Below, in pieces: positions 7,051 to 58,692 of a stretch of 64,000 nt of DNA. Position 1 is the first letter of the stretch, and every line of letters begins with the position of its first letter. A program made the position numbers and the translations under genes. The notes beneath the pieces were generated by a model. That model was given only the letters and a program-made list of their open reading frames with translations. It did not search any database and was not told the DNA's origin. Origin of the DNA: Actinomycetes bacterium (GTDB taxonomy: Bacteria > Actinomycetota > Acidimicrobiia > Acidimicrobiales > RAAP-2); contig JAJZUS010000001.1 in NCBI GenBank assembly GCA_021848365.1, positions 186,001 to 250,000 on the forward strand, written 5' to 3'.

Positions 7051-7999
7051 CCACACCCGCGTCCTGATCATCGGATCGGGACCTGCCGGTCTGACCGCTG
7101 CCATCTACTGCGCCCGAGCGCAGCTCTCCCCCATCGTGATCGAGGGAGAGCCCTCGTCCACCTCGGACCAGCCCGGCGGTCAGTTGATGCTGACCACCGA
7201 GATCGAGAACTTCCCCGGATTCCCCGAGGGGATCGACGGCCCGGAGCTGATGGGGAACATGCGCGCACAGGCCGAGCGCTTCGGCGCCGATTTGCGCGTC
7301 ACGAAGGTGCAGCGCCTGGACGTGGGGACTCGACCCTTCCGCGCGTGGCTCTCCGAGGACGACGACGAGCCGAGCGTCACCGCCGACGCGGTCGTCCTGG
7401 CCACGGGCGCTCGCTCCCTGATGCTGGACGTCCCGGGCGAGGCCCGGCTGCTGAGCCACGGCCTCTCGACTTGCGCCACGTGCGACGGCTTCTTCTTCCG
7501 CGGCCAGGACATCGCGGTGGTGGGCGGCGGGGACTCGGCACTCGAAGAGGCCCTGTTCCTGACGCGATTCGCCTCCAGCGTCACCCTCGTCCACCGTCGC
7601 GACCGCCTCCGCGCCTCGAAGATCATGCAGGAACGCGCCTTCGCCAACGAGAAGATTCGCTTCGCGTGGAACACCCAGGTCCTCGAGGTCCTCGGCGAGG
7701 AGAAGGTCTCCGGCCTGCGGGTGCGCGACACCCAGACGAGCGAGGAGCACATCCTCGGCGTCACCGGCGTCTTCATCGCGATCGGCCACGTCCCCAACAC
7801 GGCGCTGGTCGACGGTACCGCCGACCTCACCGAGTCCGGCTACGTGCGAACCGGGCCGGGCTCCTACACGAACATCGAGGGCCTCTTCGCGGCCGGCGAC
7901 GTCCAGGACGACCACTACCGCCAGGCGGTGACCTCGGCGGGTTCGGGGTGCATGGCGGCGATCGACGTGGAGCGCTGGCTCGAGGCACGAGGCGCCTAG
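7043..7999 (+). CDS. trxB: Thioredoxin reductase
   Basis: FAD/NADPH flavoenzyme that reduces thioredoxin; 318 aa from the GTG at 7043. It has the FAD-binding GSGPAGL (residues 11-17), redox pair C144-A-T-C147, the NADPH-binding [10 protein letters not shown] and the C-terminal FAD contact [14 protein letters not shown]. The start was chosen because the FAD-binding strand begins four residues later and because it gives the 8-nt overlap with the upstream membrane protein gene. The longer open frame to 6992 would add residues with no counterpart in the family. Thioredoxin follows 45 nt downstream. Confidence 0.96.
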
Positions 8000-8008
8000 G
8001 TCGCTCGC

Positions 8009-8014
8009 TAAGGT
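8009..8014 (+). promoter_or_regulatory. Probable -10 element for trxA
   Basis: TAAGGT within the 45-nt trxB-trxA gap, about 30 nt before the trxA start. It suggests trxA can be transcribed on its own as well as from upstream. I see no clear -35. Confidence 0.35.
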
Positions 8015-8044
8015 GGGGGCCACCTTTCTCCCCTGGAGGACGTC

Positions 8045-8371
8045 ATGAGCAGCCCGATCCAGATCCTGACCGACGCCACGTTCGACGAGATCGTCGGCTC
8101 GGCTGACAAGCCCATCCTCGTGGACTTCTGGGCCGAGTGGTGCGGGCCGTGCCGCATGATCGCCCCGATCCTGGAGGACTTCTCGCGGGAGCAGTCCGAC
8201 CGCTTCACGATCGGGAAACTCGACGTGGACCACAACGTGGCGACCGCGACGAAGTTCTCGGTGATGAGCATTCCCACGCTCCTCCTGTTCAAGGATGGCA
8301 AGGTGGCGGCCCGGATCGTCGGCGCGAAGCCCAAGGCTGCGCTCCTGCGCGAAGTCTCCGCCGCGCTCTAG
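8045..8371 (+). CDS. trxA: Thioredoxin
   Basis: 108-aa classical thioredoxin with the active site W32-C33-G-P-C36 and the cis-proline segment MSIPTLLLF. It reduces cytoplasmic protein disulfides using electrons from TrxB encoded just upstream. The ATG is preceded by CTGGAGGA, a good ribosome binding site. Its TAG stop (8369-8371) is in the same frame as the following cell-wall gene, which shows no ATG, GTG or TTG start in the stretch after it. Confidence 0.97.
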
Positions 8372-8401
8372 GGACGACCGACGGCCCGCCTCCCCCTCAC
8401 G

Positions 8402-9322
8402 CTGGGCGACCGCGGTGAGGACGTCCGCGAACTCCACGCCCGACTTCGCGCCCTGGGCTACTCGACCCCGGTCGAGGGCGACGACGCCTTCTCCGACCGC
8501 ACGGTGTCCGTGGTCGAGGCGTTCCAGCGCGCTCGGGGTCTCGCCATCTCCGGCGTGGTCGACGATACCACCTGGTCACGGCTGGTCGAAGCCGGATGGC
8601 ACCTGGGTCAGCGCCTGCTCTTCCTCGCGCGCCCCAACCTGCGTGGTGACGACGTCGCCGAGCTCCAGGTCCGGCTGGCGCAACTCGGATTCAACCCCGG
8701 TCGCATCGACGGCATCTTCGGTCCCCTCCTCGGACACGCGCTGAGCGACTTCCAGAAGAATCGGGGGCTCGATCCCGACGGGGTGCTGACGCGAGCCACG
8801 CTGCTCGAGGTTCTGCGGATGACCTCGGTCGCCCGTGACCGGCGTCTCGTGACCGAGGCGCGCGACGTCGCCGGATTCGATCGCCCCCCGTCGGACCTCA
8901 TCGTGGTGGCGGGCGTGAGCGACTTGGCCACCGCCATTGCGCGCACCTGGGAACACCACGGGACCATGACGCTCTTGGTCGATCGGGATCCGGTTGCGGT
9001 CGCCGCCCTCGCCAACGAGTCCAACGCGGCCATCGTCCTCGACGTCGAGGAGGTGAACGACGGTCTCGGTATCCACCTCAACTACTGGGCGAGCTACCGG
9101 TCGCACTCGCGCCGCGGGGCCGAGCTCGCCGCCGCCCTGGCGGGAGAGCTCGCCCACGACGGAACTCAGTCCCGAGTAGAGATCTCCGGCATGGCGCTAC
9201 CCGTCTTGCGTGAGACCAAGATGACCACCCTGCACGTGGCTCACGGTCCACTCCCCCACGACCAGATCGATGTTCTGGCCTCCGCCTTCTGCCGTGTCCT
9301 CGAAGAGGCAATCCGAAGCTGA
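8402..9322 (+). CDS. cwlM: CwlM-like peptidoglycan-binding pseudo-amidase (start uncertain)
   Basis: Two peptidoglycan-binding repeats (about residues 2-60, starting GDRGEDVRELHARL; and 79-140, starting NLRGDDVAELQVRL) precede an amidase_3-like domain. trxB-trxA-cwlM is the mycobacterial order, where CwlM is a cytoplasmic MurA activator rather than a working amidase. Here the zinc-binding DPGH-type motif reads IVVAGVSD, so catalysis is very unlikely. The frame is open right back to the trxA stop, but the first GTG (8504) falls inside repeat 1. CTG at 8402 just before the repeat is the best start I see. A sequencing error, another rare start or read-through of the trxA stop are alternatives. 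Family call firm, start weak. Confidence 0.75.
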   Translation: MGDRGEDVRELHARLRALGYSTPVEGDDAFSDRTVSVVEAFQRARGLAISGVVDDTTWSRLVEAGWHLGQRLLFLARPNLRGDDVAELQVRLAQLGFNPGRIDGIFGPLLGHALSDFQKNRGLDPDGVLTRATLLEVLRMTSVARDRRLVTEARDVAGFDRPPSDLIVVAGVSDLATAIARTWEHHGTMTLLVDRDPVAVAALANESNAAIVLDVEEVNDGLGIHLNYWASYRSHSRRGAELAAALAGELAHDGTQSRVEISGMALPVLRETKMTTLHVAHGPLPHDQIDVLASAFCRVLEEAIRS

Positions 9323-11517: not shown

Positions 11518-12138
11518 CTAGAACAGTGGGGACTTCCCTGGTCGGCCGACGGCGCGAGGATAGCGATCCGGGGTTGGCTGGATCTTCTGGATCACCTGGA
11601 AACCGAATCCGCCGGCCACCTGGTGGCCGATGGGGGAGAGTCCCACTACCGCCAGACCCTCTTCGGGCCAGCGATCCCTCTTGTCCGGCGGCTCGGACAC
11701 GATCAGCAGCCCCCCGACGACCAGGAAACGAGCAGCGCACTCGGCCGTCACCCCGGGGGCTGCGAAAGAACGCGAGGTGACCAGGTCGAAAACACTATCA
11801 GCGCGATCCTCGCGAGCGATTGTCTCGGCCCTCCCCCGCCAGACCTCTCCCGTTCCTGGTGAACCGGGAAGGAGGAGGGTCTCAGTGAGGAACTCAGTCC
11901 GTCGCTCCATGGCGTCGAGCAAGACGCCTCGACATCCCCACCTCTCTAGGAGGACGAGTCCAGGTAGCCCCCCTCCACTTCCGAGATCCACGAATGCCCG
12001 CGGGGGAGAGGGGTTCCTACATTCCCAAACGTCAGCGAATGCCTCCGCGTGACGAATGTGATTCTCGATGGGTCCAGGCCCTAAAAAGCCTCGCGCCCTC
12101 GATTCCTCGAGGGCGCGAGACAACCACAGTGTTGGCAC
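11518..12138 (-). CDS. rsmG: 16S rRNA (guanine527-N7)-methyltransferase RsmG
   Basis: 206-aa SAM-dependent methyltransferase modifying G527 of 16S rRNA; its loss gives low-level streptomycin resistance in several bacteria. It shows the SAM-binding DLGSGGGLPGL, the acidic-loop region LLDAMERRTEFL and a conserved DLVTSRSFAAP segment. The GTG start at 12138 is 7 nt after the khpB stop, consistent with the rnpA-yidD-yidC-khpB-rsmG operon order. Confidence 0.94.
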   Translation of the reverse strand: MPTLWLSRALEESRARGFLGPGPIENHIRHAEAFADVWECRNPSPPRAFVDLGSGGGLPGLVLLERWGCRGVLLDAMERRTEFLTETLLLPGSPGTGEVWRGRAETIAREDRADSVFDLVTSRSFAAPGVTAECAARFLVVGGLLIVSEPPDKRDRWPEEGLAVVGLSPIGHQVAGGFGFQVIQKIQPTPDRYPRAVGRPGKSPLF

Positions 12139-12145
12139 GAGTCGA

Positions 12146-13117
12146 TTATGCCGGAGAGATCACCACGAATCGACGAGGCTCCTCACCCTCCGAACGGGTG
12201 ACCACGTCCGCTGCTCCCGACAGGGCGTCGTGGACGGCCTTCCGGTCGGCGGGGGACATCGGCTCCAGAGCTCGCTCCTCGCCCGTCTCGATGACCTCGG
12301 CAGCCACCTTCTGGGCGAAACGTCCTAGTGCGGCGACGCGACGCTCCCGGTATTGGGCGACGTCAACGATCACTCGATCGGCCCGCCCTCCACTCTTCGC
12401 CTGGACGACGGTTCGTGTGATCTCCTGCACCGCCTGCAGCGTCACGCCACGCGGTCCCACGAGAATGCCCAGTTCGGTGGGCGGATCGGCGTTCACGGCG
12501 ACCTCGACGGTCTCCTCGTCCACCTCGCGCACCGTCACTGTCGCACTGACTTCCAGCGAGTCGAGAAGTCCCACAAGAAACTCCTTGGCGAACTCGCCCT
12601 GCTCTGCCAAAGAGACTCCCTCAGCCATCCTGTCCTCCTCTTTCGAACTCTTCTTCGACTCTGTCGTCGCTCGCGCCACCGTGGCGCCACCGCCAACCCC
12701 GTCGACCTTCTTCGCCTTGGGCCTCTCCGTCGACTTCGCCTTCTCGGCCTTCGTCCCGTCGCCCTTGGCTGAACTGCCCTTCTCACTCGAAGCTTTAGGC
12801 TTCTTCGTTCCACCCTTCGGCCCGTTGGCCGCGCCATCGTTGGACGACTCCGACCGGGGACGGTCGCTCTTCGGGCGGCTCTCGCCCCGATCCGCACCGC
12901 CGCGGGTCCTGCGCGATCGCTTGGGTCGCGGACCCGACGGGACGACCCGCGCCCGAACGCGCGCCTCGCCCTTCACCCGACCGAACAGGCCGGTGCGCGG
13001 TTCTTCGAGCACCTCGATCTCTGCGTCGTCGCGGTGCACTCCCAGGTGCGCTAGCGCCCGGGTGGTGGCCTCCTCGACTGACTTTCCGGTTGTCTCTACC
13101 CAATCCACGGGTATCAC
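12146..13117 (-). CDS. khpB: KH/R3H RNA-binding protein KhpB (Jag)
   Basis: 323-aa RNA-binding protein. The Jag_N domain occupies residues 1-52 (VETTGKSVEEATTRALAHLG). A very long Lys/Arg/Ser/Gly-rich linker spans about 65-170, then a KH domain with GPRG as the GxxG loop (LGILVGPRGVTLQAVQ) and a C-terminal R3H domain ending RRFVVISPA. Family members work with KhpA in post-transcriptional control of cell-wall growth. The linker is longer than in typical Firmicutes Jag. Its GTG start overlaps the yidC stop (GTGA), placing it in the YidC operon. Confidence 0.93.
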   Translation of the reverse strand: MIPVDWVETTGKSVEEATTRALAHLGVHRDDAEIEVLEEPRTGLFGRVKGEARVRARVVPSGPRPKRSRRTRGGADRGESRPKSDRPRSESSNDGAANGPKGGTKKPKASSEKGSSAKGDGTKAEKAKSTERPKAKKVDGVGGGATVARATTESKKSSKEEDRMAEGVSLAEQGEFAKEFLVGLLDSLEVSATVTVREVDEETVEVAVNADPPTELGILVGPRGVTLQAVQEITRTVVQAKSGGRADRVIVDVAQYRERRVAALGRFAQKVAAEVIETGEERALEPMSPADRKAVHDALSGAADVVTRSEGEEPRRFVVISPA

Positions 13118-14040
13118 CGTGCCTTTCTCTTGCGCTTGGATCGAGACCGCGCCTGCTGCTGGGGTTTCGGCGGTGTCGCCGCCGGGGTGGTGGTTGAAGG
13201 TCCCGATTCCTTCGGAGCCGAGCTAGCCGGAAGGGCGCGCTCACCCTTCGAATGCTTGTTCGGATTGGAGATCCCGGTGCGGAACATGATGTCCTGGGTG
13301 ATGATCCGGATGATCGTGGACACCACCATGTAGACGACGACCGCGGCCGGGATGACGATGTAGAAGTAGGCGAAGAAGATGGGGAGCAGGCGCTGGAGCG
13401 TCTGCTGCTGCGAGGGCATCGCCTGGCCCGCCTTGCGGTTCCGATTGTTCATCTGGGCCATCTGGAAGTACTGCAGGCCCACGGCAGCGGCGACGAGGAC
13501 GAAGAACGGTATCGCGGCGGCGGTCGAGGAGTGGTGGCTGAAGGGCTTGAGTGCCAGGTTCACGCCGAAGGCGTTGATCTGTCCGTGCGACGCGATCAGG
13601 TTGTGGTACATCTTCGAGGTAGTCGGGATGTAGCGGGGCTCAACCACACCAGCCGACGTCACGTTCGTCAGGCCTCGAATAACACTATACAAAATGAATA
13701 GAAAAGGCGCTTGGAGGAGCACGGGCAGACAGCCCCCGACCGGGTTGGCTCCCTCCTCGCGGTAGAGCCGCATCAACTCCTCGTTGAGGATCTGGCGGTT
13801 CTCGGGCCCCTTGTACTTCTGTTGGAGCTTCTTGATCTCGGGCTGCAGCTTCTGCATCGCCAGCATCGACTTCGTGCTCTTGACGGTGAAGGGGGTCAGC
13901 GCGCCCATGATCACGATCGTGAGCAGGGTGATCGCGATCGCGTAGTTAGGGATGAACGTGTAGAAGAACGCGATGATCCACCCGAACAGGTGGAAGATCG
14001 GCTGGAAGATCGAGCCGATCGAGTGGGTGATGGATCCCAT
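13114..14040 (-). CDS. yidC: Membrane protein insertase YidC
   Basis: 308-aa Oxa1/YidC insertase that puts membrane proteins, with or without SecYEG, into the cytoplasmic membrane. It has the Gram-positive short form: an N-terminal helix, the cytoplasmic hairpin KKLQQKYKGPENRQILNEEL, NPVGGCLPVLLQAPFLF, and later helices ending near IIRIITQD. A basic tail (residues 265-308, ending SRSKRKRKAR) may contact ribosomes. Its ATG shares one base with the yidD stop (TGATG). Confidence 0.95.
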   Translation of the reverse strand: MGSITHSIGSIFQPIFHLFGWIIAFFYTFIPNYAIAITLLTIVIMGALTPFTVKSTKSMLAMQKLQPEIKKLQQKYKGPENRQILNEELMRLYREEGANPVGGCLPVLLQAPFLFILYSVIRGLTNVTSAGVVEPRYIPTTSKMYHNLIASHGQINAFGVNLALKPFSHHSSTAAAIPFFVLVAAAVGLQYFQMAQMNNRNRKAGQAMPSQQQTLQRLLPIFFAYFYIVIPAAVVVYMVVSTIIRIITQDIMFRTGISNPNKHSKGERALPASSAPKESGPSTTTPAATPPKPQQQARSRSKRKRKAR

Positions 14041-48635: not shown

Positions 48636-48709
48636 ACGTTAGCAGATCGGTGGTGGTCCGTGCCGGTCGGGCCGCCGCGTCGTCGCCGGAACACCTCGGG
48701 AGAGCGTCG

Positions 48710-48715
48710 TACGGT
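48710..48715 (+). promoter_or_regulatory. Probable -10 of a leaderless transcript
   Basis: TACGGT with exactly 6 nt to the GTG at 48722, the start I chose for the metal ATPase. No good ribosome binding site is present. Confidence 0.45.
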
Positions 48716-48721
48716 GGGGAC

Positions 48722-51022
48722 GTGGTCGGTGATCGACGCACCTCGTCCGCGGCACTGGTGGGTCGTGGGTTCCTGCTCGTGGTCGCCCTCGCCCTCGCCC
48801 TCGGCATCGCGGCCCACCTCGTCGGACTGGGCCGTGTCGGGGATCTGCTGTGGATCGGGGCCGGTGCCGTCGGGATCGCCCAGTCGACCGTGACGATCGT
48901 GCGCGGCCTGCGGGCGGGCCACGTCGGTGTCGACGTCATTGCGCTGATGGCCCTCGTGGGAGCGATCGCCGTCGGGGAGTACCTGGCGGCGAGCGTGATC
49001 GCGGTGATGCTCGCCACGGGCCAGGCCCTCGAGGACTGGGCCACCGCTCGCGCTCGTCACGACCTCTCGGCGCTCATCGACCGCACCCCCTCGGTCGCCC
49101 ACCGCTACCGCGACGGGGCGCTCGAGAACGTGGCCCTGGCCGAGGTCCGTCCGGGCGAGACGGTGATGGTCGCGTCGGGCGAGGTCGTCCCCGTCGACGG
49201 CGTGGTGAGAACCGAGGGCGCGATCCTCGACGAGTCCGCCCTGACGGGCGAGCCGCTTCCCGTCTCGCGGGCGCCGGGCGAGCGGGTCGCGAGCGGCGTG
49301 GTGAACGCCGGGGCGCCCTTCGACCTGCTCGTGGTGTCCTCCGCCGCGGAGAGCACCTACAGCGGGATCATCCGCCTCGTGGCCGAGGCGGAGGCGACGC
49401 CGGCGCCCTTCGTCCGGATGGCCGATCGATTCGCCCTCGGATTCCTCGGCGTCACCCTGGCGGTGGCGGGCGTCGCGTGGTGGATCGGCGGCGCCGGGCG
49501 GGCGGTGGCGGTGCTGGTGGTGGCCACCCCCTGTCCCATGATCCTGGCGGCGCCGGCGGCCTTCGTCGCGGGCCTCTCGCGCGCCGCGCGACGCGGCATC
49601 ATCGTGAAGAGCGGCGCCGTCCTCGAGCGATTGGCGGGCGTGCGCACCCTGCTCCTCGACAAGACCGGCACCGTGACTCAGGGTCGTCCCGAGCTCGTCG
49701 AGATCGTGGTGGCGCCCGGGGCCCGGGTAGAGGAGGTCGTCTGGCTCGCGGCGTCGGTGGATCAGATGTCGCCGCACGTCGTCGCCGACTCGGTGGTGCG
49801 GGCCGCTCAGGGGAGTGAGCCCCTCACGGTGCCCACCGACGTCGAGGAGGTGGCGGGCCGTGGGATTCGGGGCCGGGTGGGCGCGCGACGGGTAGCCGTG
49901 GGCAACGAGGGGTGGGTCGGGATCACGACGTCGCCGGAGTGGGCTCGCCGGGCGCGTCGCCGGGCCCGGCGTGAGGGTTCGCTCACCGTGTACGTGGCCG
50001 TGGACGACGAGGCGCAGGGACTCCTCGTCTTCTCCGACCCTCTACGGCCCGACGCGGCGCGCACGATACGGAACCTTCGTCGAGCGGGCGTCGAGCGGGT
50101 CGTGATGATCACTGGCGATCGGCCCGAGGTCGCGACCTCGCTCGGCGCGATACTCGGCGCCGACGAGGTGTGGGCCGAGCAGTCGCCCGCCGACAAGCTC
50201 GCGGTGGTGCAGCGCGAGGCGCAACGCTCGTCGACCGCGATGGTCGGGGACGGGGTCAACGACGCGCCGGCTCTGGCCCTCGCGACGGTCGGAGTGGCCA
50301 TGGGAGCTCGAGGGTCGACGGCCGCGTCCGAAGCGGCCGACGTGGTCCTGGCAGTCGATCGCCTGGACCGTCTGAACGAGGCGATGATGCTGGCGCGTCG
50401 GACGCGGCGCATCGCCACTCAGAGCGTGGTCGCGGGTATGGCCCTATCGGGGGGCGCCATGGTCGCCGCCACCATCGGGTGGCTGCCGGCCGTCGTGGGC
50501 GCGATCCTGCAGGAGGGCATCGATGCCGCAGTGATCGTGAACGCCCTGCGCGCGCGTCACCCCGGCCGTCAGACGGTGACCTGGACCGACGGTGACACCC
50601 GCGTGAGCGAGCGGTTCCGGAACGAGCACCGGGCGGTCCGTCACGTCCTCGACGAGGTGCGTCGTGCCGCCGACACCCTGGACACGGCGGATCCCTCGGG
50701 CGCGTGGCGCACCGGGCGGACGATCTACGAGCGTCTGGCGACCGAGGTCCTGCCCCACGAGGAGGCGGAGCAGGCGGAGCTCTACCCCACCCTCGAACGG
50801 GTCCTCGGCGGGAGTGATCCCCTGGGCACCATGAGCCGCGCCCACGCCGAGATCGCCCATCAGATTCGACGACTCGGCCTCCTCCTCGACGAGATGGGCA
50901 CCGACGAGCCGGACGCCGATGGCGTCCTCGAGCTACGCAGCTCGCTCTACGGCCTGTACGCCATCCTCGAATTGCACACGGCCCAGGAGGAGGAGAACCT
51001 CCTCTCGCTCGCCGACGGGTGA
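48722..51022 (+). CDS. P1B-type heavy-metal ATPase fused to a hemerythrin domain
   Basis: 766 aa. Residues 1 to about 615 form a metal-transporting P-type ATPase: TGEPLPV actuator loop, membrane metal motif TPCPM (about 270), phosphorylated D313 in DKTGT, TGD and GDGVNDAPALA. There is no N-terminal metal-binding domain. Residues about 630-765 are a hemerythrin/HHE bundle with iron-ligand pattern NEHRAVRH, LPHEEAEQAELYP, MSRAHAEIAHQI and LHTAQEEENLL. The TPCPM motif does not fix the metal. The hemerythrin domain could sense oxygen, NO or iron and gate transport, or protect the pump. An upstream in-frame GTG (48650) is less likely. Confidence 0.85.
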   Translation: MVGDRRTSSAALVGRGFLLVVALALALGIAAHLVGLGRVGDLLWIGAGAVGIAQSTVTIVRGLRAGHVGVDVIALMALVGAIAVGEYLAASVIAVMLATGQALEDWATARARHDLSALIDRTPSVAHRYRDGALENVALAEVRPGETVMVASGEVVPVDGVVRTEGAILDESALTGEPLPVSRAPGERVASGVVNAGAPFDLLVVSSAAESTYSGIIRLVAEAEATPAPFVRMADRFALGFLGVTLAVAGVAWWIGGAGRAVAVLVVATPCPMILAAPAAFVAGLSRAARRGIIVKSGAVLERLAGVRTLLLDKTGTVTQGRPELVEIVVAPGARVEEVVWLAASVDQMSPHVVADSVVRAAQGSEPLTVPTDVEEVAGRGIRGRVGARRVAVGNEGWVGITTSPEWARRARRRARREGSLTVYVAVDDEAQGLLVFSDPLRPDAARTIRNLRRAGVERVVMITGDRPEVATSLGAILGADEVWAEQSPADKLAVVQREAQRSSTAMVGDGVNDAPALALATVGVAMGARGSTAASEAADVVLAVDRLDRLNEAMMLARRTRRIATQSVVAGMALSGGAMVAATIGWLPAVVGAILQEGIDAAVIVNALRARHPGRQTVTWTDGDTRVSERFRNEHRAVRHVLDEVRRAADTLDTADPSGAWRTGRTIYERLATEVLPHEEAEQAELYPTLERVLGGSDPLGTMSRAHAEIAHQIRRLGLLLDEMGTDEPDADGVLELRSSLYGLYAILELHTAQEEENLLSLADG

Positions 51023-51084: not shown

Positions 51085-52812
51085 ATGTTGCTACGCCTCC
51101 TCCGCCCGTACCTGCGGCCCCGCGCGGGCTCGATCGGGCTCGTTGTCGTCCTGCTCGTGGCCCAGACCCTCGGCAACCTCTACCTCCCCAACCTCAACGC
51201 GGACCTCATCAACGGGGGCGTCGTCACCGGCAACCTCCACTACATCTGGGTGACGGGGGCGTGGATGCTCGGCATCACCCTGATGATCAGCGCCGTGGCC
51301 GTCACGGGTATCTACTGGGCCTCGCGCATCGCGATGGCCGTCGGCGCGGACCTACGCGGCGCGGTCTTTCGCGCCGTGCAGGAGTTCTCGTTGGGCGACA
51401 TGAACGAGTTCGGCACCCCCTCGCTCATCACGCGCAACACGAACGACATCCAGCAGATCCAGATCTTCCTGCAGGTGGCCCTCACGATGATGGTGATCGC
51501 GCCGATCATGATGGTCGGCGGCATGGTCTTCGCGATCCACGAGGACGCACGCCTCCTGCCACTGCTCGCGGTGGCGGTTCCCCTGATGGTCGGCTTCCTC
51601 GCGTTGATGATGTCCCGCGTCGTCCCGCGCTTTCGCATGATGCAGACGAGGATCGACCGGATCACCCAGGTCCTGCGTGAGCAGATCACCGGGGTTCGCG
51701 TGATCCGGGCCTTCGTGCGCGGCGGCGACGAGGCCACCCGATTCGACGGGGCGAACGCCGACCTCACGGCTACCACGCTCTCGGTGAACCGGCTCTTCGC
51801 GTTGATGATGCCCGTGATGATGGTGATCCTCAACCTGAGCAGCGTGGCCGTGATGTGGTTCGGCGGACGGCTCGCGGCGGGGGGGTCCCTCTCGATCGGG
51901 AATCTGACGGCCTTCCTCTCCTACATCCTCCAGATCCTGATCTCCGTGATGATGGCGACGATGCTCGCCATCCTCGTCCCCCGGGCGATGGCGAGCGCGG
52001 AGCGCATCGGACAGGTCCTCGCAACTCGTCCCTCGATCGTCGATCCGCCGACGCCGCGTCGCCCGACGCGCCTCGACGGCGCGGTCGCGTTCGAGGGCGT
52101 CTCCTTCTCCTATCCCGGTAGCGAGCGACCGGTCCTCGAGGATCTCGACTTCCGCTTCGAGCCGGGACGCACCAGCGCGGTCATCGGGGGAACGGGATCC
52201 GGTAAGTCGACTCTGCTGAACCTCATCCCACGGTTCCTCGACGTGAGCGACGGCGTGGTTCGCGTCAGCGGGCTCGACGTTCGCGAGTGGGCGCGCGAAG
52301 ACCTGTGGTCGGGCATCGGGCTCGTACCCCAGGCCGCCTTCCTGTTCCGGGGCACCGTGGCGAGCAATCTCCGGGTCGGTCGGCCCGAGGCGACGGACGA
52401 CGAGCTCTGGCGAGCACTCACCATCGCCCAAGCCCACGACTTCGTCGCCGCGATGTCGGGTGGCCTTGACGCCCCCATCGACCAAGGCGGGACCAACGTC
52501 TCCGGTGGTCAGCGCCAGCGGCTGGCGATCGCCCGGGCCCTCGTGAAGCGGCCCGCCCTCTACCTGTTCGACGACTGCTTCTCCGCTCTCGACGCGGAAA
52601 CCGACGCCCGGCTGCGTGCCGCCCTCGCCGAGGCCACCGCCGAGGCGACGGTCGTCATCGTCGCCCAGCGCGTCTCGACGATCATGCACGCCGACGAGAT
52701 CGTCGTCCTCGACGAGGGTCGGGTCGTCGGGGTGGGGGGCCACGCCGACCTTCTGGACTCGTGTCCGGAGTACCGGGAGATCGTCACCTCACAGTTGGGG
52801 GCCGTCGCGTGA
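51085..52812 (+). CDS. Heterodimeric ABC exporter, subunit with degenerate ATPase site
   Basis: 575-aa half transporter: six helices (1 to about 310) then an ATPase domain. Walker A GGTGSGKST (about 367), signature NVSGGQRQR (canonical), but Walker B is LFDDC with Asp instead of the catalytic Glu (about residue 497). This matches the TM287-type half of heterodimeric exporters. Its partner is the next gene, which starts in the GTGA overlap. Substrates of such pairs include drugs, lipids and peptides. Confidence 0.92.
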   Translation: MLLRLLRPYLRPRAGSIGLVVVLLVAQTLGNLYLPNLNADLINGGVVTGNLHYIWVTGAWMLGITLMISAVAVTGIYWASRIAMAVGADLRGAVFRAVQEFSLGDMNEFGTPSLITRNTNDIQQIQIFLQVALTMMVIAPIMMVGGMVFAIHEDARLLPLLAVAVPLMVGFLALMMSRVVPRFRMMQTRIDRITQVLREQITGVRVIRAFVRGGDEATRFDGANADLTATTLSVNRLFALMMPVMMVILNLSSVAVMWFGGRLAAGGSLSIGNLTAFLSYILQILISVMMATMLAILVPRAMASAERIGQVLATRPSIVDPPTPRRPTRLDGAVAFEGVSFSYPGSERPVLEDLDFRFEPGRTSAVIGGTGSGKSTLLNLIPRFLDVSDGVVRVSGLDVREWAREDLWSGIGLVPQAAFLFRGTVASNLRVGRPEATDDELWRALTIAQAHDFVAAMSGGLDAPIDQGGTNVSGGQRQRLAIARALVKRPALYLFDDCFSALDAETDARLRAALAEATAEATVVIVAQRVSTIMHADEIVVLDEGRVVGVGGHADLLDSCPEYREIVTSQLGAVA

Positions 52813-54749
52813 GCATGGGCGGCGGACCGGGTGGTGCCCTGCGGGCCGGCGTGGGACCGGGCGTCGCGCCGGGTGGGCCGGACGTCAACCTCCGCGCGGC
52901 GCTCTCGCGACTCCTGCGCCGGCTCGCCCCCGAGCGGGCGGCGATGGTGGCGGCCGTTCTCTTCGGGGCCGCCGCGGTCGCGGCGAACGTGAGCGGCCCT
53001 TGGATTCTCGGGCGCGCGACCAACGTGCTCTTCAACGGGATCGTGAGCCAGCACCTGCCCGCGGGATTCACGAAGGCCCAGGCCATCGCGGCCCTGCGCG
53101 CCCAGGGCAAGAGACAGATCGCCCAGATGCTCTCGACCCTCTCGCTCACGCCCGGGCACGGCGTGGACCTCACGCGTCTCGGCCAGATCCTGGGGCTCGC
53201 GGCTCTCGCCTACCTCGCCGGGTCGGCGCTCACGTACGCCCAGGGCTACCTCATGGCGGGGGTGGCGCAGCGCTCGATGTACCGACTGCGTCGGGAGGTC
53301 GAGGAGAAGCTCGCGCGACTCCCGCTGCGCTACTTCGACTCGCATCCTCACGGGGACGTGCTGAGCCGAGTTACCAACGACATCGACAACCTCACGACCA
53401 CGCTGCAACAGGGCCTCAGCCAGCTCCTGACGTCGGTGCTCACCGTGATCGGCGTCCTCGCGATGATGCTCTGGATCTCGCCCCTGCTGGCCGCGATCGC
53501 GGTCATCACGATCCCGATCGCGATCGCGCTCACCCTCCTCATCGCCCGTCGCAGCCAGCGACACTTCGCCAACCAGTGGCGCGAGACCGGAGGTCTCAAC
53601 TCGATCGTCGAGGAGACCCACACCGGTCACTCTCTGGTCCAGGTCTTCGGCCGTCGTCGCGCCGCGACGGCCGAGTTCGACGAGGTGAACGACCGGCTGT
53701 ACCAGGCGAGCTTCCGCGCCCAGTTCCTCTCGGGGGTCATCCAGCCCACGATGCAGTTCGTCTCCAACCTCAACTACGTGGCGATCGCCGTGATCGGCGG
53801 CTACCGCGTCGCGTCGGGACTTTTGTCGCTCGGCGACGTGACCGCCTTCATCCAGTACACGCGACAGTTCACGATGCCCCTCACGCAGATCGCCGGGCAG
53901 ATGAACATGCTCCAGTCGGGTTTGGCCTCCGCCGAACGTGTCTTCGAGTTTCTCGACGCCGCGGAGGAGACCGTCGACCGACCGTCGACCCCGCCGGTCG
54001 CGGGTCGGGGTGCGATCTCCCTCGAGCACGTGAGCTTCCGCTACGACCCCGCCATCCCCCTGATCGAGGACTTCACGCTGGACGTCGCCCCGGGCGAGAC
54101 CGTCGCCATCGTCGGCCCGACGGGCGCGGGCAAGACCACCATGGTCAACCTGCTGATCCGCTTCTACGAGATCGATGGGGGGCACATCGTCCTCGACGGC
54201 GAGGACTATCGCGACCTCACCCGCGACGAGGTGCGCCGGCACTTCGCGATGGTCCTCCAGGACACGTGGCTCTTCGCCGGGACGGTGCGCGAGAACATCG
54301 CCTACGGTCGGCCGGGCGCCACGGCCGACGAGGTCGTGGCGGCCGCGCGAGCGGCTCACGCGGACGGGTTCATCCGTACCATGCCCCACGGCTACGACAC
54401 GGTCCTCGGTGACGACAGCGCCAACGTCTCGGCGGGTCAGCGACAGCTGCTCACCATCGCCCGTGCCTTCCTCGCCGATCCCGACATCCTCATCCTCGAC
54501 GAGGCGACCAGCAGCGTCGACACCCGTACCGAGGTCCTCATCCAACGCGCCATGGGCGACCTTCGACGAGAGCGGACGAGTTTCGTCATCGCCCACCGGC
54601 TGTCGACGATTCGCGACGCCGACGTGATCCTCGTGATGGAGCACGGTCGGGTCGTCGAGCACGGTCGTCACGCGGAGCTGCTGGCCGCGGGCGGCGCCTA
54701 CCACCGCCTCTACGCCAGCCAGTTCACGGAGGCTGATCCCGCCGCGTGA
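52809..54749 (+). CDS. Heterodimeric ABC exporter, catalytically competent subunit
   Basis: 646 aa from the GTG at 52809. A Gly/Pro/Arg-rich N-terminus and an insert between helices 1 and 2 (about 80-145) enlarge it. The ATPase domain has GPTGAGKTT and Walker B ILILDEATSS with catalytic Glu565, but its signature reads NVSAGQRQ instead of LSGGQ. This is complementary to the first subunit: one competent and one degenerate composite site. GTGA overlap with the previous gene couples their synthesis. A start at the ATG at 52815 is also possible. Confidence 0.92.
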   Translation: MSMGGGPGGALRAGVGPGVAPGGPDVNLRAALSRLLRRLAPERAAMVAAVLFGAAAVAANVSGPWILGRATNVLFNGIVSQHLPAGFTKAQAIAALRAQGKRQIAQMLSTLSLTPGHGVDLTRLGQILGLAALAYLAGSALTYAQGYLMAGVAQRSMYRLRREVEEKLARLPLRYFDSHPHGDVLSRVTNDIDNLTTTLQQGLSQLLTSVLTVIGVLAMMLWISPLLAAIAVITIPIAIALTLLIARRSQRHFANQWRETGGLNSIVEETHTGHSLVQVFGRRRAATAEFDEVNDRLYQASFRAQFLSGVIQPTMQFVSNLNYVAIAVIGGYRVASGLLSLGDVTAFIQYTRQFTMPLTQIAGQMNMLQSGLASAERVFEFLDAAEETVDRPSTPPVAGRGAISLEHVSFRYDPAIPLIEDFTLDVAPGETVAIVGPTGAGKTTMVNLLIRFYEIDGGHIVLDGEDYRDLTRDEVRRHFAMVLQDTWLFAGTVRENIAYGRPGATADEVVAAARAAHADGFIRTMPHGYDTVLGDDSANVSAGQRQLLTIARAFLADPDILILDEATSSVDTRTEVLIQRAMGDLRRERTSFVIAHRLSTIRDADVILVMEHGRVVEHGRHAELLAAGGAYHRLYASQFTEADPAA

Positions 54750-55483: not shown

Positions 55484-56068
55484 TCAGGTCGGGCGAGCGA
55501 GGGCCTCGAGGGTCGTCGGACCGGTGAAGACGTGCGCCTCGAGTCCGAGGGCCCGCGCCGCGTCGATGTTCTCGGCTCGGTCGTCGACGAAGATGACGTC
55601 ACCGGGGTCGGCGCCGAGGGCCGCGAGGGTGACGTGATAGATCGCCGACTCGGGCTTGAGGAGGCCGAGCCGCCCGCTGAAGATTCGCGTCTCGAACGGA
55701 GCGAGCCAGGCGAGCCGTTCGAGCCCGTCGGCGAGTGGCGCGGGGGCGTTCGAGAGGATCGCCAGTCGATGGCCGTCGTGGGCGAGACGGTGGACGGCCG
55801 CGAGCGAGGCCTCGTTGGGTCGGCTCCACATGGTGGCGTCGCACTCGAGCAGTCGTTCGATGGTCGTCGGCGGGATGCGGGTGCCGAGGACGCGCGACCA
55901 GTACTCGTCCGTGGTGACCGTCCCCCGGTCGTACTCCGGTCGGTGGGCCCAGTACTCGGACCAGAAGGCGTCGCCCGTGACGCCGGCCGCCACCTCGAGG
56001 GCGTCACGGTCGGCCGGTGAGGGGGCGAGGGAGAGGACCTCGCCGTAGTCGCAGAGGAGCCAGGTCAC
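55484..56068 (-). CDS. HAD-superfamily phosphatase-like hydrolase
   Basis: 194 aa. Motif I CDYGEVLS (D7 nucleophile, Gly-type second position), motif II ILSNAP, motif III Lys in GLLKPESAIY and motif IV VIFVDDRAENIDAA: a subfamily IA HAD protein. Substrate unknown. GTG start at 56068 with AAAGGA five bases upstream. A minus-strand TAGCGT (56121-56126) could be its own -10, so it need not depend on the heliorhodopsin gene. Confidence 0.88.
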   Translation of the reverse strand: MTWLLCDYGEVLSLAPSPADRDALEVAAGVTGDAFWSEYWAHRPEYDRGTVTTDEYWSRVLGTRIPPTTIERLLECDATMWSRPNEASLAAVHRLAHDGHRLAILSNAPAPLADGLERLAWLAPFETRIFSGRLGLLKPESAIYHVTLAALGADPGDVIFVDDRAENIDAARALGLEAHVFTGPTTLEALARPT

Positions 56069-56142
56069 GGGAGTCCTTTCGCGGAGTGGTCGACGCGGCG
56101 CGACGCGGCCGCCGCGTACGACGCTAGGCGTTCGTCGCGTAC

Positions 56143-56160
56143 CGCCGCCCGTGGGCGGCG
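56143..56160. terminator. GC-rich hairpin after the heliorhodopsin gene
   Basis: CGCCGCCC-GT-GGGCGGCG, 9 nt beyond the heliorhodopsin stop. It lacks a U-tract, so it is at best a weak terminator separating that gene from the HAD gene. Confidence 0.35.
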
Positions 56161-56169
56161 ACGGTCGGC

Positions 56170-56928
56170 TCAGTGGGGGGTCGGGGACGCCAGGGTCGAG
56201 GCGAAGACCTGCCACGCGAGGAGGGACTTCGCGACGAAGCTGAGGACGATGTAGGTGCGCTCGCCCACCAGGTAGTCCGCGAAGCGCCCGACCCGGCGGT
56301 ACTGGAGGTACTGGACGACGGCAAAGCAGCCGAAGAGGACGAAGATCGAGACGTAGATGCCGTAGACGAATCCGGGAGCGTGCTGGTGCGCGCCGGGGGC
56401 GAAGAGATAGATGCCGAGGGCGATCCACGGGACGGCCCCGGCGACGCTGCCGAGCCAGAACGGCTGCAGCGATCCGCCGGGGTGCTCGTAACGCTCCTGC
56501 ATCCAACCGAATCCGATCATGGCCGCGTTGGCGCCGGCCAGGGCGAGGAGCGCCGCGACGTCGGAGATTCCCGTCAATTGGGCGATGGCCACGATCATCA
56601 CCGTCGCCGAGAGCGAGTACTCGATCCACCGGTAGGGGTTGCGCTGCCTGTCGAGGTCGGCCAGGTAGCGCGACGCGAGGGGTCCGGCCACGGCGCCGTG
56701 GGCTAGGGCGGAGAGCCCGAAGAAGAGGGCGATCCACAGTGCCATCGGCACCGAGCCGTAGGTGACCACCTCGTAGCGACCCGATCCGGGAGCCCCCGCC
56801 ATGTAGCGCGCGGTGACCGGCAGCGAGAATCCGTTCGCGAGCGCGAGGACCGCGATGCCCGAGGCCAGGTGCAGCAGTCCCGCCGCCGCGTTGAGTCGGC
56901 GCAGGCGACGTCCCATCGTGTTCTCCAT
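56170..56928 (-). CDS. Heliorhodopsin
   Basis: 252-aa, seven-helix retinal protein. The last helix carries LSFVAKSLLAWQVF with the Schiff-base lysine K234, and helix C carries WIEYSLSATVMIV with counter-ion candidate E103. ALANGFSLPVTARY, GANAAMIGFGWMQERYEHP, PGFVYGIYVS and QYLQYRR match heliorhodopsin landmarks. Heliorhodopsins have inverted topology (N-terminus inside) and no confirmed pump activity in most cases; a signalling or enzyme-regulating role is proposed. ATG at 56928 has AAGGAGG six bases upstream. No retinal-forming dioxygenase is visible in the window. Confidence 0.93.
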   Translation of the reverse strand: MENTMGRRLRRLNAAAGLLHLASGIAVLALANGFSLPVTARYMAGAPGSGRYEVVTYGSVPMALWIALFFGLSALAHGAVAGPLASRYLADLDRQRNPYRWIEYSLSATVMIVAIAQLTGISDVAALLALAGANAAMIGFGWMQERYEHPGGSLQPFWLGSVAGAVPWIALGIYLFAPGAHQHAPGFVYGIYVSIFVLFGCFAVVQYLQYRRVGRFADYLVGERTYIVLSFVAKSLLAWQVFASTLASPTPH

Positions 56929-57036
56929 GGCGACCTCCTTCGGTGACCCCCCGTCCATCTTGCCGGGACCCGGTCCGACGGGGCGCCCGGCGCGGGGAGG
57001 GACGTCGGGCGCGTCGCGGCCTGATAGACCTCCGGG

Positions 57037-58692
57037 ATGTCCACTGAGCACCGCTCCCCCCTCTTTCGCCACGCCGCCGAGTACGTCGCCGAGGTGGCCC
57101 GGCTCGATCCGGTGGCGGCGACCTTCATGGGGATCGGAGGGTACGACGATCAGCTGGGCGACTACTCGCTGGAGGGGGCGGCGCATCGCACGGACGCCGC
57201 GCGTCGGGCCCTCGCACGCCTCGCCGATCTCGACGACGTCGACGAGGCCGACCGGATCGCCCGTGGGGTGATGGTGGATCGACTGAGTCTCCAGCTGGAG
57301 CTCGACGCGACGCACGAGTCGATGGTCCGCTGGGGGGCGATCGGCTCCGTCCCCCTCTCCATCCGTCAGGCCATTGAGATGATGCCGGGCGAGACGGAGG
57401 ACGAGATCGATCGTGTGACGTCGCGCCTCGCGGCCGTTCCCACCGCCTACGCGACGTGGAGGTCGGGGGTCGCGGAGCTCGCCGCTCAGGGCGTGACCAC
57501 CCCGCGCCGTCACGTCCTCGGCGTCGCGGCCCAGCTGGAGACCTTCGCCGAGGGCGCCTACGTCGAGCTGGCCGCCCGCCTCGACCCCCACGCGCGTCGT
57601 CCCGCCCTGCACGCGGCGGCGATGGTCGCCGACCGGGAGGCGGGCGCCCTCGCCGACTGGCTCCGTCGGGGGTGTCTCGCGAGCGCGAGCGTGAACGACG
57701 CGGTCGGCGAGGAGCGCTACGCGCTCTGGGCCGCCAGCTACACGGGCTCGTCGCTCGACCTGCGCGAGACCTACGAGTGGGGACTCCAGGATCTCCGCGA
57801 GATCACCGGACGCATGCGCCGGGTGGCCTCGAGCGCGGTGCCCGGCGCCGCGTCGCTCCGTGAGGTGGCGACCCGTCTCGACGAGGACCCGCGGTACCTC
57901 GTGCGCGGGACCGACGAGCTCCTGGCTCGGCTGCGGGCCTTCCTCGAGCGGGCGGTCGCCGCCCTCGACGGGACCCACTTCGACATCGACGCGCGCATCC
58001 GCCACTGTGACGTGCGGATCGCGCCCGCGGGCAGCGCCGCCGCCCCGTACTACACGGGGCCGAGCGACGACCTCTCGCGACCCGGGACGACGTGGTTCCC
58101 GACGTTGGGCCAGGACGTCTTTAGCTGGTGGTCGCTCCCGTCGACCTGGTACCACGAGGGCGTCCCCGGCCACCACCTCCAGATCGCGACGGCGGTCGCG
58201 GAGCGGAACCGACTCAGTGCCTTCCAGCGACTGGTGGAGTCGGCCGACGGCTACGTCGAGGGCTGGGCCCTCTACGCCGAGCGGTTGATGGACGACCTCG
58301 GGGCCTTCGACGACCCGGGCGAGGAGCTCGGCTTCCTCTCCGGGCAGGCCCTCCGCGCCGCGCGGGTCGTCGTCGACATCGGACTCCACCTCGGGCTGCG
58401 TGATCCGCGGGGAGAGGTGTGGACCGCGGCGTCGGCGGTGGACCTGCTCGTCGACGAGGCCCTACTCGACCTCGACTACGCGCGTAGCGAGGTGGATCGC
58501 TACCTCGCCATCCCGGGCCAGGCGATCTCGTACAAGGTCGGCGAGCGAGCCTGGCTCGCGACGCGGGAGGCGGCGCGCGGCCGCGTGGCGGGGGAGTTCT
58601 CGCTACGGCGATTCCACGCCCGGGCCCTCCTGCTCGGCCCGATGGGTCTCGACCGCTTCACGAGCGAGATGTCGACCTGGGACGGGCGCTGA
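57037..58692 (+). CDS. DUF885-family putative metallopeptidase
   Basis: 551 aa. The zinc-site-like motif HEGVPGHH lies near residues 373-380 (TWYHEGVPGHHLQI) and the second part GYVEGWALYAE near 404-414, both typical of DUF885 proteins, which resemble M32/M3-type peptidases. No signal peptide, so probably cytoplasmic. Proteolytic activity is inferred from the motif. Divergent from heliorhodopsin across a 108-nt GC-rich gap. Confidence 0.88.
   Translation: MSTEHRSPLFRHAAEYVAEVARLDPVAATFMGIGGYDDQLGDYSLEGAAHRTDAARRALARLADLDDVDEADRIARGVMVDRLSLQLELDATHESMVRWGAIGSVPLSIRQAIEMMPGETEDEIDRVTSRLAAVPTAYATWRSGVAELAAQGVTTPRRHVLGVAAQLETFAEGAYVELAARLDPHARRPALHAAAMVADREAGALADWLRRGCLASASVNDAVGEERYALWAASYTGSSLDLRETYEWGLQDLREITGRMRRVASSAVPGAASLREVATRLDEDPRYLVRGTDELLARLRAFLERAVAALDGTHFDIDARIRHCDVRIAPAGSAAAPYYTGPSDDLSRPGTTWFPTLGQDVFSWWSLPSTWYHEGVPGHHLQIATAVAERNRLSAFQRLVESADGYVEGWALYAERLMDDLGAFDDPGEELGFLSGQALRAARVVVDIGLHLGLRDPRGEVWTAASAVDLLVDEALLDLDYARSEVDRYLAIPGQAISYKVGERAWLATREAARGRVAGEFSLRRFHARALLLGPMGLDRFTSEMSTWDGR

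Follow-up and report, generated by a model that had tools for sequence, protein, structure and literature searches.

How a heliorhodopsin (HeR) is charged and what it does in a cell whose genome gave no match to the retinal-source families searched is the question raised by the gene at positions 56170–56928 (minus strand) of the window, the 64,000-nucleotide stretch of actinobacterial contig JAJZUS010000001.1 analysed here. The reading that we favour, with a probability of roughly 0.7, is that this HeR is a retinal-dependent photosensor which scavenges retinal from its community and acts as a light switch on a partner encoded elsewhere.

Family assignment and predicted fold

The gene encodes a protein of 252 residues (ATG start, TGA stop), which scored 300.7 bits against PF18761 (cut-off 26.7) and 284.3 bits against the NCBIfam equivalog model NF038020 (cut-off 100). 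PF18761 matched once in the host assembly (E = 6.8e-90) and in none of 14 control genomes. All six distinct sequence matches in the PDB were heliorhodopsins, the best being 48C12 (2.5e-77). An AlphaFold2 model built from 29 sequences (pLDDT 89.1, pTM 0.86) has seven helices, a two-stranded β-structure in the A–B loop (residues 35–43 and 52–61), and a B–C helix (residues 85–93). The first ten Foldseek matches of the predicted model were heliorhodopsin structures, with a TM-score of 0.92 for 48C12 (6su3), and the other matches listed were other rhodopsins with query TM-scores of 0.52–0.65. The loops on the N-terminal side carry nine Lys or Arg in 44 residues versus two in 52 on the other side, a balance in line with the inverted HeR topology, in which the N-terminus would be inside. 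No sequence of the host genome, the HeR gene included, matched the type-1 rhodopsin profile PF01036 at E ≤ 0.001. With both family models matched far over their cut-offs and a predicted fold like that of 48C12, the protein is an ordinary, bona fide heliorhodopsin, as a preliminary description of this DNA had proposed.

Retinal source in the host, the genus and the order

The host genome, 96.7% complete and assembled into three contigs totalling 1.96 Mb, carries one HeR and gave no match to PF15461 (BCD/Blh), PF03055 (RPE65), PF00494 or PF01036. PF00494 covers squalene/phytoene synthases, the family of the carotenoid backbone synthase. The preliminary description had noted that the window holds no carotenoid dioxygenase; this extends to the whole assembly, in which the BCD, RPE65 and PF00494 searches were all empty, and the genome-wide check for dioxygenases and type-1 rhodopsins that it had suggested gave no match in the host genome. 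It had noted no lycopene cyclase in the window either; such a gene would be of little consequence without a PF00494 match.

A set of 148 genomes, comprising 90 of the genus (G000–G089, G000 being the window's genome) plus one representative each of 58 further families in the order, contained HeR (PF18761) in 37, that is, in 24 of the 90 and 13 of the 58. BCD/Blh was matched in a single genome (G146, HeR-bearing too), the RPE65 family in 30 (four of the genus, all without HeR), and PF00494 in 28 (six of the genus, none HeR-bearing). In all six, PF00494 matches occur as adjacent pairs, presumably a hopanoid-type arrangement. Type-1 rhodopsin exceeded its cut-off in four genomes, one of which (G055) belongs to the genus and also bears HeR; four genus matches to PF01036 below the cut-off fall within HeR coordinates and were left uncounted. 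The G055 gene (L041:1501-2166, minus strand) has a DVLAK lysine motif and sits in a genome without a BCD, RPE65 or PF00494 match. Among the 14 control genomes, RPE65 was matched in two, PF00494 in seven, and BCD and type-1 rhodopsin in none, so the sensitivity of the BCD search rests on matches elsewhere (1/148 here and 17/296 in the phylum sample below).

None of the 24 HeR-bearing genus genomes (65–97% complete each) matched PF15461, PF03055 or PF00494, and one incomplete assembly is therefore not the cause. Across the whole set, 28 of the 37 HeR-bearing genomes lack all three families, namely these 24 and G101, G128, G133 and G141. Within the genus, a test for mutual exclusion of HeR was not significant with either PF00494 (Fisher 0.19) or PF03055 (Fisher 0.57). 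As a separate observation, an RPE65-family oxygenase (11773–13173) lies 3 kb from HeR (7998–8717) in G132 (L088); its best NCBIfam match, 8'-apo-carotenoid 13,14-dioxygenase, is below that model's cut-off.

Because no gene was detected for the carotenoid backbone or its cleavage, the retinal would come from other community members, and the host is very probably dependent on outside retinal. The cell could instead make retinal by an undescribed route, as concluded in the available text of PMC7734400 for the actinobacterium Aurantimicrobium minutum, which has endogenous retinal without blh; four family searches do leave room for a pathway of another kind. However, the same text gives A. minutum C50 carotenoid genes, which places the gap there late in the pathway, whereas PF00494 is matched in none of the 24 HeR-bearing genus genomes. 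We consider in-house synthesis unlikely.

Retinal genes across the phylum

The phylum sample was drawn evenly and comprised 296 genomes, a few of them common to the 148-genome set. HeR gave matches in 79 genomes, of which one fell below the cut-off and several were fragments, and BCD gave matches in 17, six of which bear HeR. PF00494 was found in 17 of the 79 HeR-bearing genomes, and 62 of the 79 have neither PF00494 nor BCD. HeR-bearing and other genomes did not differ significantly (Fisher p = 0.41 and 0.11), indicating that HeR carriage is not predictive of owning a retinal pathway. These counts suggest that dependence on outside retinal is common among HeR hosts in the phylum and not a curiosity. 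Published work already describes HeR hosts that lack retinal genes; the genus-wide and phylum-wide counts are the addition made here, and we found no report of such a phylum count in the open-licence literature.

Conservation of the Schiff-base cavity

The motifs WIEYS and LSFVAKS, from which the preliminary description had read the counter-ion and the retinal lysine, set E103 and K234, and both are invariant in all 37 rows of an alignment that combines 23 HeRs of the host genus, that of the window among them, with 14 drawn from 13 further families of the order, made without the split G056 copy and a G075 fragment. The same holds for H20, H77, R100, E223 and W239, which together with E103 and K234 we take to be the Schiff-base cavity residues by mapping from 48C12/TaHeR numbering, and for the SxxxK of helix 7 (S230/K234). 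The key residues are also kept in 80 named loci, counted as 73 after removal of seven duplicates, although this set is biased because the patterns used to find the loci cover the surroundings of K234 and E103. The preliminary description would have doubted its reading if a retinal source were lacking and close relatives had lost K234 as well; no source was found in the families searched, and K234 is kept in 25 of 25 HeR loci of the genus.

A protein that works without retinal, either as an apo-protein or with another ligand, would explain why it is conserved in a genome without a known retinal source. Under such a function, though, the Schiff-base lysine would not be expected to persist, and the 23 aligned genus HeRs, the most distant of which is 52% identical to that of the window, all have K234, E103 and the cavity residues. 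This makes retinal-free function quite improbable and leaves the scavenging photosensor as our preferred reading.

Two positions set the host lineage apart at the sequence level. Ser23, which by our mapping occupies the position of the relay residue Gln-26 in 48C12/TaHeR, is present in 21 of the 24 genus loci covering the position, 3/14 loci of the order and 6/73 named loci. Position 114, which we take to be the third position of the TM3 motif, is Ala in 19 of the 23 genus loci covering it (Leu in three, Val in one), and Ala occurs there in 0/14 loci of the order and 3/73 named loci. The window HeR thus has E103 and S107 of the motif with Ala114, not Leu, as the third letter, and the curated family models still score it as HeR. 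In the passages available, a relay role is described for Gln-26 (PMC9385722) and the TM3 motif of HeR is printed as E-S-L (PMC9601134). Because the Gln-26 position is Ser and the third TM3 letter is Ala, the details of signalling may differ in this lineage.

Selection and distribution

The HeR of the sister genome G076 is 95% identical to that of the window, and dN/dS for this pair is 0.13 (NG86) or 0.05 (YN00), compared with 0.19/0.06 for the adjacent HAD gene and 0.33/0.17 for the DUF885 gene. Five other genus pairs at 82–95% identity gave 0.03–0.12 for HeR, the value coming for some pairs from only one of the two methods, and two pairs near 70% identity gave 0.23 (NG86). The low values indicate that the gene is kept by purifying selection.

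The distribution of HeR in the genus (24 of 90 genomes) is patchy. On an rpoB DNA tree (quick method) of 69 genus genomes and three outgroups, which includes 16 of the 24 HeR-bearing genus genomes and leaves out genomes without rpoB, G076 among them, HeR requires seven changes, or six when the outgroups are dropped, compared with a mean of 16 after shuffling. The window's genome falls in a clade of 52 (support 92) whose only other HeR is that of G038. In the HeR tree (quick method), the window and G076 copies group with those of G057, G019, G069 and G071 (SH-aLRT 95). HeR lies 1.5–4.2 kb upstream of fhaA in G019, G069 and G071 and 7.6 kb upstream in the window's genome, in the same relative orientation. 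In the HeR-less relatives G048 and G030, a DUF885 gene is directly upstream of fhaA, and none of 20 DUF885 regions fetched contained a HeR match. The pattern fits a HeR locus that is old and has been lost repeatedly; transfer between members of the genus may also have taken place.

The patchiness, the six to seven changes, the position of the window's genome within a clade mostly without HeR, and a HeR split over two frames in G056 would also be expected of a passing acquisition that is useless without retinal and heading for loss. The dN/dS values argue against this, as does the grouping of the window and G076 copies in the HeR tree, and the placement upstream of fhaA in G019, G069 and G071 too speaks for long residence. 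We therefore hold a transient gene to be highly improbable and retain the scavenging photosensor.

Several genomes show irregularities. The HeR copies of G006, G022, G035a and G038 group with other lineages, reflecting either horizontal acquisition or contigs of foreign origin in the metagenome bins. The two HeR copies in the G035 bin (L062, L063) fall on separate branches of the HeR tree. In G056, the split HeR (L069:6029-6716) is a pseudogene or an assembly error. The rpoB genes of G013, G016 and G052 (L187, L188, L218) are about 57–65% identical to that of the window's genome over the main piece and form a very long branch, so that their genus assignment or binning is odd.

Gene context and candidate partners

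An AAGGAGG ribosome binding site, read from the sequence at 56934–56940 (minus strand), lies 5 nt ahead of the ATG. Downstream on the same strand, after a gap of 101 bp, is a HAD-IA hydrolase gene (55484–56068, minus; PF00702, 2.4e-10; TIGR01509, 49.5 v 29.4 bits), and a DUF885 gene (57037–58692, plus; PF05960, 4.2e-131) is divergent from HeR. These profile matches bear out the neighbours named in the preliminary description, which had also credited the gene with its own ribosome binding site and a hairpin past the stop. A G+C-rich hairpin with a 9-bp stem is indeed predicted at 56141–56165 (minus strand), but its reading as a terminator finds no support: it is without a T run, and the 81-nt fold at the stop is at shuffle level (z = −0.12; 83 of 200 shuffles equally stable). 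The search for terminator-like sites ending in a T run was negative, as was the promoter scan. A monocistronic gene is plausible from this arrangement; since HAD is on the same strand and starts 101 bp downstream, read-through into it is possible. An ABC exporter pair occupies 51085–54749 on the strand opposite to HeR, at least 1.4 kb away. The window has no Rfam family at gathering thresholds and no tRNA. It also encodes, at 48650–51022, a P-type ATPase that carries a hemerythrin domain at its C-terminus, the two in a single reading frame.

Recurrence of HAD or DUF885 beside HeR, which the preliminary description had proposed to check, was limited to two of 39 HeR loci (some on short contigs). 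HAD, Hsp20, DUF885 and the ABC pair, the last as close copies, are shared by the window and G076 only; these genes were compared by tblastn, as the rough gene calls misplaced the HAD strand. HAD and DUF885 are thus ruled out as conserved partners. Among 74 genus genomes searched, a set without G076, DUF885 was found in 41, with 6/19 of the HeR-bearing ones versus 35/55 others, and in the five HeR-bearing ones besides the window's it is on a different contig from HeR. The ABC pair as an OmrDE-like partner is unsupported, with close copies beside HeR only in G076; distant matches (28–48%) in the fetched stretches of G057, G095, G104 and G141 would be given by a large family.

No gene cluster recurs beside HeR in more than a few of the 39 loci, according to a neighbour table that was built on rough gene calls and whose counts are therefore approximate. 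On the same strand, the gene that most often follows HeR is an SDR-DUF2867 fusion, located 9–45 bp after it in four genomes of the genus, G016 (L059:8645-10096), G052 (L067:8764-10203), G063 (L071:6508-7944) and G064 (L072:6538-7980), its family having been scanned in one genome and assigned in the other three by sequence clustering. It likely forms an operon with HeR, and the available text of PMC11109279 names SDR among ten HeR neighbour groups. In G140, HeR is followed on its own strand, after 43 bp, by an HTH and B12-binding protein (L090:8775-9551); this protein resembles the CarH repressor, at 69 v 400 bits for the equivalog cut-off. Because the neighbours are not conserved, they point to no partner for the HeR of the window.

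Co-occurrence with photolyase

Photolyase (PF03441) was matched in 24/24 HeR-bearing versus 36/66 other genus genomes (Fisher 9e-6), and in 12/13 versus 16/45 genomes of the other 58 families (Fisher 3e-4). Genome size explains part of this co-occurrence: the counts are 20/20 versus 22/28 in genomes of up to 2.0 Mb (p = 0.03) and 4/4 versus 14/38 above (p = 0.03), and two finer small-size bins gave p = 0.46 and 0.27. Independent pairs on the rpoB tree have the same direction in about two of six to seven, never the opposite, which is not significant. As the association weakens under control for genome size and tree, we rejected a role of HeR as a photolyase helper and kept the co-occurrence as evidence of habitat only.

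Proposed role

In the scheme that we propose, the apoprotein would be charged with retinal released by other community members, which probably enters via a membrane-facing opening, as described for other HeRs. The retinal would bind at K234, with E103 as the putative counter-ion. Light would then drive a slow photocycle, and the HeR may serve, in the membrane, as a light switch for a partner not encoded beside it. In the genus, HeR is almost always the sole rhodopsin found, which separates its function from light-driven pumping, and its carriers have no detected carotenoid backbone enzyme, which separates it from in-house retinal. The host genus makes dependence on outside retinal directly testable. 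A bolder generalization, rather unlikely at present, is that in this genus and in most HeR-bearing Actinomycetota the protein is a stand-alone receptor fed only by the retinal of other organisms, a social light sensor. If true, HeR would report both light and the presence of carotenoid-making neighbours.

Comparison with known systems

The literature is cited here for what the accessible parts of each paper state. Partners have been tested for other HeRs, namely glutamine synthetase (PMC9529153), photolyase (PMC9769723) and the OmrDE ABC transporter (PMC11109279). The role proposed there, a light-driven helper of another protein, is similar to ours, but those partner genes share an operon with HeR, whereas the window HeR is without an evident operon partner. 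Bulzu et al. (PMC8612252) treat HeR context and, in the accessible part, not the retinal source. Missing retinal genes are described elsewhere: essential ones in Bathyarchaeota with HeR (PMC7110647), and crt genes in freshwater Acidobacteriota with type-1 rhodopsin (PMC11561045).

Closer to the present case are Ca. Actinomarinales, with HeR and type-1 rhodopsin but without retinal genes (PMC7771536), and the HeR hosts of the Luna-1 cluster, mostly without blh and mostly with crt genes (PMC12422013). Both are actinobacterial HeR hosts lacking all or part of retinal synthesis, as is the host genus. In contrast to it, many of their genomes have type-1 pumps, compared with a type-1 rhodopsin over the cut-off in one of the 24 HeR-bearing genus genomes, and Luna-1 mostly has crt genes, compared with PF00494 matched in 0/24.

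Compared with 48C12 (6su3), the window HeR is 52% identical over the structural alignment with the TM-score given above, and has the same counter-ion, lysine and cavity residues; it differs in having Ser23 for the Gln-26 relay and Ala114 for Leu. TaHeR of Thermoplasmatales archaeon SG8-52-1 (6is6) has the same fold (TM-score 0.89) and likewise comes from a host described as without means of making retinal (PMC9385722), but it is archaeal and 40% identical, whereas here the searched source families are absent in 24 genomes of one bacterial genus. For TaHeR, an opening is proposed to admit external retinal (PMC9385722), and fast binding of external retinal is reported for Saccharibacterial type-1 rhodopsins and HeR, including the HeR apoprotein (PMC9296517).
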